In this document: piece by piece, positions 22,682-24,880 of the stretch | Position numbering within the stretch: position 1 is the stretch's first letter | Layout of the letters: each line of letters begins with the position of its first letter | Virus record (IMG/VR): IMGVR_UViG_3300032288_000999 | Coordinates: 1-31,893 of that record | From: a virus | DNA length: 31,893 bases | Strand: one strand, 5' to 3' | Position numbers and translations under genes: made by a program | Notes under the pieces: generated by a model | Seen by the model: the letters and a program-made list of their open reading frames with translations, nothing else | Told to the model about the DNA's origin: nothing | The model's database searches: none

Positions 22682-23456
22682 AAAATTTTTTAAAGGCTAT
22701 TTTTTTGCTTAAATTCTGCAACCTAAACTTTTCTTCATCGGTTATTTCATTCTTCTTAACCATTTCAAAAAACATATTATTAGCCATAATGTCATCAATT
22801 CGGTTAGATTTAGCGTTTGAACTTAATTCCCTTTGCCGATAACTTTTTGCTTCATCATAAATCTTTAACTTTTCTTCTTTAGTTAAATTTATATATCCTA
22901 ACTTTTCTGCATATTCATAAATAAAGATAGGTATTAGATTAATCTCTAAAGTATTTTTAGAAAGATATTCTTCAACGTCTTGAATCATTTCTTTTTGTGA
23001 TATTTCATTAGAAGCCATAGGAAGCGAAATTTCGGCTTTTGTTTCTTTTGTGTGTAATTCCCTTCTTAAAGTAAGATAAGGCTTTAAAACGTCATCTAAT
23101 GCAGTTAGGTTAAAGTTTTTACCCCAATCATTGATAGTAAAGTTTCTAAAAGCATATTCTATCTCATTTGTGTTTAGGAATGAATAAGATTCCTGAAGTT
23201 TTAAAGAAAGTTGTTCTGCGAAAATATCAAGCAAATTTTTGTCTAAAATGTTCCATCCTGTGATTACGTTCATTTTTATGATTAGCGAATAAGCAGAAAG
23301 TTTTAGTTCTTCAGTATTCATTTGTTTGAATGGAATTCCAGATTCTTTAGCCTTCATTACCCCCACCATATAACTTGGCATAGAGTTCAGCACCTTTTGC
23401 TTGGATGTACTCAATTGATTCGTTGGTAGTTTGTTGTCTTGTTTTTGAAGTTGCAT
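22647..23456 (-). CDS. Replication-region protein, possible helicase-loader position
   Basis: The 269 residues are largely helical with no clear ATPase or zinc motif. A conserved-looking middle (NTNEIEYAFRNFTINDWGKN, then LTALDDVLKPYLTLRRE) resembles proteins that follow the initiator in Bacteroidota phages, the position of lambda P. The C-terminus is charged (DEEKFRLQNLSKKIAFKKFY). The longest start overlaps the initiator by 110 bases; Met codons at 23381 or 23357 would shorten the overlap to 35 or 11 bases and may be the real start. Function by position only. Confidence 0.6.
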   Translation of the reverse strand: MQLQKQDNKLPTNQLSTSKQKVLNSMPSYMVGVMKAKESGIPFKQMNTEELKLSAYSLIIKMNVITGWNILDKNLLDIFAEQLSLKLQESYSFLNTNEIEYAFRNFTINDWGKNFNLTALDDVLKPYLTLRRELHTKETKAEISLPMASNEISQKEMIQDVEEYLSKNTLEINLIPIFIYEYAEKLGYINLTKEEKLKIYDEAKSYRQRELSSNAKSNRIDDIMANNMFFEMVKKNEITDEEKFRLQNLSKKIAFKKFYESKKDRPAET

Positions 23457-24162
23457 CTTTAAATTTTTGTGTTTTTAACCAATTGGTAAAATGAAGATAA
23501 ACTTTGTTTTGAGAATTGTAATGAGTTTCTCCAGTAAGATTTTGGACTTTAAACGCTTCCCACATTTGAATAACTTGGCTTTCAGATAAATCTATTTTTT
23601 GACTGATTTTTATTAACTGAATTGAAGAATGAAGATATTGTTCAGGCAGTCCGTTAAAATCTGAACTTAAATATTTTTTGCCTCTTAAAATTATTTCTTC
23701 TTCTTTACTTTCTTTTTCTTCTAATTCTTCTTTATATATGTTCACCTGTTGTTCATCTGTTGTTCGTCTGTTGTTCACCTGTTGTTCATTTGCTGTGCAT
23801 TGGCTGTTCATAGGCTGTTCAATTTCATCTGATTTGCTTTGATAACTATCATATTTACAAATAGTTACGACTGAATAATGGTTGTTCACTTCAATATCAA
23901 TTTGGCCTAATTCTTGAAATTTAAGCAATGTTCTATAAATCAAACTACCATTAATTCCAAGTTCTTCTTCAGCCTTATTTCTACCAAAGATTAATTGCCC
24001 TCTTTTAACCTCTATTGTTTTAAATCCTTTGCCTACATTTAAAGGAATAAAAGCACTCTTAAAGTTGGCTTTAATTAATAACCAAATCCAAATTTTAAGA
24101 TGGTTAGGATTAGCAAATGAATAGCTATAAAGTAAATCCCTATCTAATTTAATGTAACTCAT
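23347..24162 (-). CDS. Winged-helix replication initiator carrying the origin
   Basis: I choose ATG at 24160-24162, one base after the previous stop; a Met three codons upstream is also possible. The N-terminal domain (about 1-105) has a winged-helix look: YIKLDRDLLYSYSFANPNHL, KIWIWLLIKANFK, VKRGQLIFGRNKAEEELG, then NGSLIYRTLLKFQELGQ as a recognition helix and a wing. A Gln/Asn-rich linker is encoded by 11-bp iterons, then an acidic stretch, then a helical C-terminal domain (ESQVIQMWEAFKVQNL, HFTNWLKTQKF) like DnaD/O-type proteins. As in lambda O, the initiator probably binds repeats within its own gene. It is the central gene of the replication block. Confidence 0.75.
   Translation of the reverse strand: MSYIKLDRDLLYSYSFANPNHLKIWIWLLIKANFKSAFIPLNVGKGFKTIEVKRGQLIFGRNKAEEELGINGSLIYRTLLKFQELGQIDIEVNNHYSVVTICKYDSYQSKSDEIEQPMNSQCTANEQQVNNRRTTDEQQVNIYKEELEEKESKEEEIILRGKKYLSSDFNGLPEQYLHSSIQLIKISQKIDLSESQVIQMWEAFKVQNLTGETHYNSQNKVYLHFTNWLKTQKFKDATSKTRQQTTNESIEYIQAKGAELYAKLYGGGNEG
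23740..23827. repeat. 11-bp iterons, candidate replication origin
   Basis: Seven complete tandem units of 11 bp start at 23740, 23751, 23762, 23773, 23784, 23795 and 23806, followed by a partial eighth (GTTCA). Plus-strand consensus is GTTCATCTGTT; units 1 to 4 differ by one or two bases, 5 to 7 diverge at the end. Since 11 is not a multiple of three, the units are read in all three frames, so similarity must be kept at the DNA level. The 11-bp pitch puts sites on one face of the helix. An AT- and purine-rich stretch (23650-23740) adjoins, as an unwinding element would. Confidence 0.75.
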
Positions 24163-24163
24163 T

Positions 24164-24355
24164 TTAATCATTTAAATCTTTAAGAATAAAGTTTAGGTCG
24201 CAAATAAATTCTTTTAATTCATCTGCAGTTAAATCAACAAACTGAATGTCAGTAAAATTTTCTAAATGTATTCTAATCAAATTGTCATTTGTTTTAAAAT
24301 AAGTTAAAAAACTTGTTCCTTCAACATCATTAAAATATCTTTTTTCTATTGGCAT
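24164..24355 (-). CDS. Small protein upstream of the initiator, unknown function
   Basis: I choose ATG at 24353-24355 (63 residues, MPIEKRYFNDVEG...). An upstream GTG lies inside a strong hairpin stem and is unlikely. The protein has a beta part (FLTYFKTNDNLIRIHLENFT) and an acidic helical end (ADELKEFICDLNFILKDLND). It overlaps or abuts the initiator start, so it shares translation with it. The leader hairpins just upstream suggest its translation or transcription is controlled. Confidence 0.6.
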   Translation of the reverse strand: MPIEKRYFNDVEGTSFLTYFKTNDNLIRIHLENFTDIQFVDLTADELKEFICDLNFILKDLND

Positions 24356-24365
24356 AAAATAAAAT

Positions 24366-24448
24366 AGCCCCACAGGGACAAGCTGCAGGGCATTTATTTA
24401 GATTTCTCTAAAATAAATTTGTAAATGGCTTGTCCTTCATTTACAAAT
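24366..24448 (-). ncRNA. Structured leader with two hairpins and complementary loops
   Basis: In the minus-strand RNA, hairpin 1 has a perfect 10-bp stem (24448-24439 with 24426-24417) and a 12-base loop containing GGACAAG. Hairpin 2 has a 9-bp stem (24391-24383 with 24375-24367, including a tandem G-U pair) and a 7-base loop CUUGUCC. The whole loop of hairpin 2 is complementary to loop 1, so a kissing complex of 7 bp is possible, as in ColE1-type control RNAs. Hairpin 2 is followed by a U-rich tail (UAUUUUAUUUUAUG) that runs into the next start codon. It may act as an attenuator or translational switch for the replication genes. Confidence 0.65.
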
Positions 24449-24455
24449 CGTTAAA

Positions 24456-24463
24456 CAAATATA
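24456..24463 (-). promoter_or_regulatory. Possible promoter -7 element for the replication genes
   Basis: The minus strand reads TATATTTG, a perfect TAnnTTTG element of Bacteroidota promoters. Transcription would start near 24450, exactly at the outer end of hairpin 1. No TTG lies at the usual 17-23 base distance, so the promoter may be weak or depend on an activator or on another sigma factor. Confidence 0.45.
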
Positions 24464-24487: not shown

Positions 24488-24880
24488 TCACTCGTAAAAA
24501 TAAGTTGTACTTCCGTAAGTTTCCAGAAATACTTCCTTAATCTTAACTCTAAATTCAGGTTCAATATCAATAAGTTCACCAATTCTTTTAACGTGGTGCA
24601 TAACTGAAGTATGGTCTTTGCCACCTAAAATATTTCCAATATGCTTTAAGCCTAAACTTAAATATCTATCCTTTCTTAAAACATAGGCAGCAACCATTCT
24701 TGCTTCAGCTATTTTAGCAGTTCTTCTTTTACCTACTATTTCAGTTACAGGTATTTCAAAGAATTTAGAAATAGATTCTAATATTTCATTTGAATTTAAA
24801 CGCTTACTAATAGGATTTATTTTAAAGTAGGAAGGATGCTCAATACACGGATTACAAACTTCTGATTTTACTTCTAACAT
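24488..24880 (-). CDS. Free-standing DnaA domain IV-like DNA-binding protein
   Basis: Residues 30-125 match the C-terminal DNA-binding domain of DnaA: ILESISKFFEIPVTEIVGKR, then EARMVAAYVLRKDRYLSLGL, the HTH (LKHIGNILGGKDH) and the signature GGKDHTSVMHHVKRI (86-100). The AAA+ part of DnaA is absent. The first 25 residues have Cys10, Cys13 and His15 (CNPCIEH). It lies immediately before the structured leader and the initiator gene. It could recruit or displace host DnaA, or act as a regulator at an origin-like site. No perfect DnaA box was seen near it. Confidence 0.8.
   Translation of the reverse strand: MLEVKSEVCNPCIEHPSYFKINPISKRLNSNEILESISKFFEIPVTEIVGKRRTAKIAEARMVAAYVLRKDRYLSLGLKHIGNILGGKDHTSVMHHVKRIGELIDIEPEFRVKIKEVFLETYGSTTYFYE

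Follow-up and report, generated by a model that had tools for sequence, protein, structure and literature searches.

Directly ahead of the replication genes in IMG/VR virus record IMGVR_UViG_3300032288_000999, of which we analyzed positions 1 to 31,893 (31,893 nt, hereafter the window), lies a short leader with two predicted hairpins whose loops are complementary, which raises the question of whether these loops pair and what such pairing might do for the phage. An earlier note had described a short sequence element, two hairpins, a U-rich tail and an ATG here, and all of these were found on the minus strand (as are all features below) where it had put them. Reading in the direction of transcription, the box TATATTTG (24456..24463) fits the Bacteroidota -7 element TAHHTTTG, and from its position, using the published consensus and spacing to the start (PMC6847099), we predict transcription to begin at about 24451, two bases before hairpin 1 and hence at its foot; the promoter consensus used is that of Bacteroidota, and the virus record carries no host label. 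Hairpin 1 (H1, 24416..24449), seen both in the fold and in relatives, has a 12-bp stem (24449-24438 / 24427-24416) with a G.U pair at its base and a G-C pair beside a folded loop of 10 nt, AAGGACAAGC (24437-24428), so that the hairpin of the earlier note stands while its 10-bp stem and 12-nt loop do not. Downstream, a small middle hairpin (TTTAGA-GAAA-TCTAAA, 24397..24412) is predicted by folding and precedes the terminator-like hairpin 2 (H2, 24367..24391), whose 9-bp stem (GCCCTGCAG/CTGTGGGGC) contains two neighboring wobble pairs (UG/GU) and carries, as had been claimed, the 7-nt loop CTTGTCC (24376..24382). All seven bases of this loop pair with GGACAAG (24429..24435) in loop 1, again as described; the eighth C-G pair that had been offered as possible is conceivable, yet would need the G-C pair closing H2 to open. 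Between H2 and the start codon lies the U-rich tail TATTTTATTTT (24356..24366).

Evaluating this single sequence, RNAfold returned all three hairpins, with 12 pairs in H1 and 9 in H2 (z = -3.8), and H2 scored as terminator-like (0.1 expected). Shuffling the whole window 60 times produced 6 comparable two-hairpin arrangements (stems of at least 9 and at least 8 bp, kiss of at least 7 bp), or about 0.1 per window, and for this reason we take the single-sequence case as suggestive only and leave it to relatives to settle whether the structure is real.

Searching IMG/VR with the proteins encoded upstream and downstream of the leader, we gathered related loci that keep the same layout, differ in sequence, and fall into three leader classes (A, B and C). 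Class A, to which the window belongs, carries three loop types on shared stems (GGACAAG/CTTGTCC, GAGCGAA/TTCGCTC and GTACGAA/TTCGTAC), and next to it stands one locus (L010) with a different H2, a partly changed H1 and the loops GTCGCAT/GTGCGAC. Class B has an H1 of the form ATTTCGTTnCG...CGAAACGAAAT and an H2 of 13-16 bp, while class C combines an H1 of 5-6 bp, closing a loop of 7 nt, with an H2 that sits within GCCC/GGGC. H1 was retained in the relatives, with compensatory stem changes in L168; the middle hairpin was confined to class A, where its outer pair shows a compensatory U-A/A-U exchange, and was absent from classes B and C. Within the 180 nt upstream of initiator homologues, the arrangement was present in 33 of 52 distinct leaders (two of these probably by chance) and in 6% of shuffles, and a scan of both strands of 239 loci (2.9 Mb) with a promoter and ATG filter yielded 37 distinct elements, two of them apparently spurious. 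Together, the elements carry about 17 different loop pairs. Two further loci (L160 and L175) show, about 100 nt before position 1501, variants in otherwise different leaders, namely an 8-nt complement (AAGGCGAA / TTCGCCTT) and a 6-bp kiss (CGCACA / TGTGCG), which hints at a family extending beyond the three classes. Separately, terminator-like hairpins of the form CCCTGCAG-N7-CTGTGGGG recur in unrelated phage contigs (L028, L035, L024, L045 and others), often just before an ATG and with tandem wobbles as in H2 of the window, and these have no partner loop; the second-stem pattern CCTGCAG-N7-CTGTGGGG likewise matches unrelated phage hairpins without a partner loop.

Because these scans themselves select for complementarity, we added searches blind to it. 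Using the class C H2 stem with its 7-nt loop left free, we recovered 61 distinct contexts from IMG/VR, of which all 44 with a T-rich tail and ATG possessed a perfect 7-nt loop complement in the 60 nt before, as against 0/17 of the other contexts (longest complement 5 nt), these and the following counts being of distinct sequences rather than independent events since collections can hold near-duplicates. The class B H1 stem, again with the loop free, recovered eight distinct AT-rich elements, each with an 8-9 nt complement downstream (8/8), and a single GC-rich chance match with a complement of 5 nt. Every complete element found with the class A H1 stem had an 8-nt complement (7 in one truncated at a contig end), whereas mixing loop types within class A left 2-5 nt shared, the few values of 7-8 coming from L171 against the L009 type, both of which carry GTACGAA.

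The loops also covary. The class A alignment (6 distinct rows) has a kissing helix that is 100% paired with both-side changes at 4 of 7 pairs, as against 0-1 pairs across the whole structure in slid controls, and its H2 stem shows compensatory changes. In class C (36 rows) the kissing helix is likewise 100% paired, with both-side changes at 5 of 7 pairs, and whole-structure covariation reached 0.392 compared with at most 0.071 when slid. Of 16 distinct loop pairs, each is paired at all seven positions, against an average of 4.3 for mismatched loops, and none of 100000 permutations of the loops reached the observed pairing total. Loop 1 follows the pattern R-U-N-S-N-A-N, with position 6 of the kiss always A-U and position 4 always G-C or C-G, and the 7-base kiss duplexes span -5.5 to -10.7 kcal/mol with a narrower spread than random 7-mers (sd 1.2 vs 2.5). 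Loop 2 has U at position 2 in all classes and mostly A at position 6 (N-U-N-S-N-A-Y), a pattern that resembles a tRNA anticodon loop or U-turn loop; mimicry of tRNA anticodons was considered and set aside, as the middle triplets fit no consistent tRNA.

The earlier note had named the comparison with relatives as the place where its proposal could fail; in distant relatives the stems and the loop pairing are kept, with compensatory changes, ahead of replication genes. From these sequence comparisons, the kissing-loop structure almost certainly exists, and covariation strongly supports its stems, its loop-loop pairing and its fixed place between promoter and replication genes. The conserved G.U pairs indicate RNA and speak against a DNA cruciform, and together the comparisons strongly support that these replication operons are headed by a transcribed leader whose loops kiss at the RNA level.

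We then considered what surrounds the kiss. In class C, 56 of 56 elements possess exactly one TAnnTTTG box, 16, 17 or 23 nt before loop 1. At the other end, every class has a strong H2 (dG about -13.5 to -21), followed in all classes by T3-6 A T3-5 and then, 7-12 nt past the stem, by the ATG, such that H2 resembles an intrinsic terminator set shortly ahead of the start codon; for some class A rows, in which the automatic fold had joined the tail to upstream sequence, the 9-bp form of H2 was used. Judged by sequence, the attenuator feature of an intrinsic terminator between promoter and coding sequence is thus present. The T tail of class A is interrupted (TATTTTATTTT in the window), which may weaken termination. 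No alternative conserved stem that could serve as an antiterminator was noticed in the folds, the kiss being the sole conserved long-range partner. The linker between H1 and H2 measures 12-18 nt in classes B and C and in L010, where H1, seven kissing pairs and H2 sum to 31-34 levels even though H1 and H2 lengths differ, and is near the minimum for spanning a coaxial kissing rod of that size; for L152, L010 and L076 a straight rod slightly exceeds a reach of 6 A per nt and would need fraying or bending. This modeled geometry matches a closed rod formed in cis, but shared descent could account for it as well.

The neighboring genes connect the leader to replication. In the window, the first gene past the leader is a 63-aa ORF to which no function was assigned (24164..24355), and next comes a gene for a DnaD-like helicase loader / replication initiator (23347..24171; PHROG 2514, E 5.7e-23). 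Other genes replace the first gene in relatives, where it falls into eight unrelated clusters that include Lin1244_N initiators, an HNH endonuclease, a GIY-YIG-like protein (by eye), small ORFs and others, whereas annotated operons encode an initiator or DnaD-like protein downstream of the leader and, in several, also DnaB. With a variable first gene and an initiator or DnaD-like gene next, the leader therefore belongs with the replication operon rather than with any one gene. Within the DnaD-like gene are about seven 11-bp tandem repeats of the TGTTCACCTGT type (23739..23821), candidate origin iterons; similar arrays lie inside the initiator genes of several relatives in each class, with units of 12 bp in class B (TTGAACAACCTG) and 15 bp in class C (AAAGGAAAGTAAAGG), and these repeats are candidate phage origins that, like that of lambda O, would lie within the initiator gene. 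Immediately before the leader, on its upstream side, a short gene (24488..24880) encodes only a DnaA C-terminal DNA-binding domain (PF08299, E 1.7e-18), and its product might bind at the origin or at the promoter of the leader.

To summarize how such a leader might work, we propose that it attenuates the phage replication operon in cis through its kissing loops, a scheme that, taken whole, holds about half of our confidence. The leader would be the 5' RNA of the replication operon, its start at the H1 foot being deduced from the promoter box. H1 would fold first and present loop 1; the polymerase would then make the terminator-like H2, with its 7-nt loop fully complementary to the H1 loop, and the two loops could kiss in cis. 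Whether and when the kiss forms would set how often transcription stops at the U-rich tail, short of the start codon, a stop leaving a leader RNA of about 95 nt and readthrough giving the initiator and DnaB genes along with the candidate origin inside the initiator gene. Termination, its alteration by the kiss, the sign of that effect and the action in cis are all parts that we infer.

Standing so near the AUG, H2 could equally block ribosomes, and a translational switch is a rather unlikely competitor of this attenuator. Here, the full leader would be transcribed and the kissed H1-H2 complex would hide or free the ribosome site of the first gene, in likeness to the pseudoknot upstream of repZ in IncI-alpha plasmids. 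The footprint of a ribosome at the AUG would take in H2, structure close to the start codon reduces initiation in Flavobacterium johnsoniae (PMC6847099), and the U-rich stretch before the AUG lacks a favorable A at -3. A run of U right after the stem is, however, what a terminator needs rather than a ribosome site, and since the first gene varies among its eight clusters, a switch at the first start would miss the initiator unless translation were coupled. Loop-loop complementarity ahead of replication genes also recalls targets of counter-transcribed RNA of ColE1 or IncB type, which the earlier note had offered as its alternative in trans. Searching each leader plus 150 nt, we found a complete Bacteroidota-type promoter on the opposite strand in 0/63 elements and single boxes in 9/63, compared with a 17% background, and each loop already has its complement in the same RNA, so this alternative gains no support and is very improbable. 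In ColE1, the 7-nt hairpin loops of RNAI and RNAII are wholly complementary to each other; there the loops sit on sense and antisense RNAs, whereas both loops of the phage leader sit on one strand. The phi29 packaging RNA is a phage RNA that does carry two complementary loops in one molecule, with sequences differing between phages. A free-standing RNA of this manner, its loops joining neighboring molecules into oligomers, would account for two complementary loops per RNA, for sequences that vary between phages with the match kept, and for a terminator-like 3' end. Our leader differs from the phi29 RNA in position, genes and fold; wherever found, it heads a replication operon, none was seen as a free-standing locus, an ATG directly follows the terminator tail, and no Rfam family matches, which makes such an oligomer most unlikely. 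Nor do we give much credence to a protein-binding site or an RNA-polymerase-modifying element (HK022 put-like) for which the kissed fold is a mere scaffold: the fixed kiss bases (A-U at position 6, G-C or C-G at position 4) could reflect recognition, but the stems are wholly different between classes.

The loops themselves raise a further reading, in which terminated leaders build up and their loops pair with other leader copies, such that phages of the same type cross-regulate like plasmid incompatibility groups. Comparing the window with three close relatives (L005, L007 and L008), 8 of 14 loop bases differ as against none of the 69 other core bases, while in the upstream gene 3-5 of 38-40 four-fold sites do. 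Set against L005, 4 of 7 loop pairs and 5 of 38 four-fold sites changed (p = 0.02, for one contrast and one event), and thus the loops outpaced nearby silent sites in this contrast. This is suggestive, though not proof, of diversifying selection on the loops or import of loop types, and in IncK plasmids single loop nucleotides set compatibility (PMC10724649). Against this reading, two loops in one RNA usually pair in cis first and the linker is near its cis minimum; the two class A loop types could differ by drift or recombinational import, as all four class A loop-pair changes are reachable by wobble steps, and class C H1 stems vary as much as the loops. We consider regulation in trans of this kind unlikely, and doubtful too its fuller form, a replication-compatibility code: of many matched loop pairs each lineage would carry one, its terminated leader would act in trans on leaders of that type, limiting the operon by phage dosage and deciding interference in co-infection, and types would switch as matched sets to escape interference. 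In the window as a whole, GGACAAG occurs 10 times (2.6 expected), and we rejected these sites as trans targets; those alignable to relatives are for the most part unchanged, irrespective of which loop type the relative carries, as coding sequence would be.

Returning to the proposed attenuator, its nearest known systems in working, by analogy, would be the IncI-alpha-type pseudoknot leaders and the pT181/pIP501 attenuators (PMC8383071, PMC10724649). In the rep leader of IncI-alpha/IncB/IncK plasmids, the loop of stem-loop I pairs distantly with an element near the gene start and loop nucleotides decide specificity (PMC10724649, PMC8383071); the phage leader resembles this in preceding a replication initiator gene and in the long-range pairing of a leader loop with a site upstream of the initiator operon. 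Unlike these plasmid leaders with their RNAI and pseudoknot, both partners here are closed hairpin loops, the second is terminator-like, the carrier is a phage, and there is neither a conserved antisense promoter nor a conserved leader peptide: a candidate class A peptide (ATG AAG GAC AAG CCA ... TAG) was not conserved, and a leader ORF of at least 5 codons was absent in 23/63 elements, so the leader-peptide feature of the IncI-alpha type was not found. Attenuators of the pT181/pIP501 type likewise place a terminator-like hairpin between promoter and rep gene (PMC8383071), but are switched by an antisense RNA, whereas the partner loop of the phage leader lies in the same RNA.

Rfam 15 gave 0 matches at the gathering cut-off for the window and 16 relatives. 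The only, and weak, Rfam similarity to the whole element was to the trpB motif (RF04312; 27 bits against a cut-off of 59), likewise a leader of two hairpins, the second of which has a terminator-like stem; it precedes different genes, the similarity is a general one, and we know of no kissing in it. Our literature search, with most subscription journals outside its coverage, found no description of the leader, so that, within Rfam 15 and the literature searched, the earlier note's view of it as undescribed stands. The leader was absent in the stretches examined of Porphyromonas phage005b, Flavobacterium phage 1/32, Riemerella CRP6, Pseudanabaena phage Pan5 and three gut contigs; phage and plasmid collections gave no convincing DNA match and no cultured carrier, and one scan of a genome collection for hosts, by protein query only, gave two distant matches.

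Together, these observations point to an apparently undescribed and widespread structured RNA at the point of replication control in uncultured phages, a large group with promoters of Bacteroidota type. Its terminator-like hairpin would use its own loop as the pairing partner, for which we found no precedent among other attenuators. Should it prove true that loop types act in trans, these phages would possess a plasmid-like incompatibility system.
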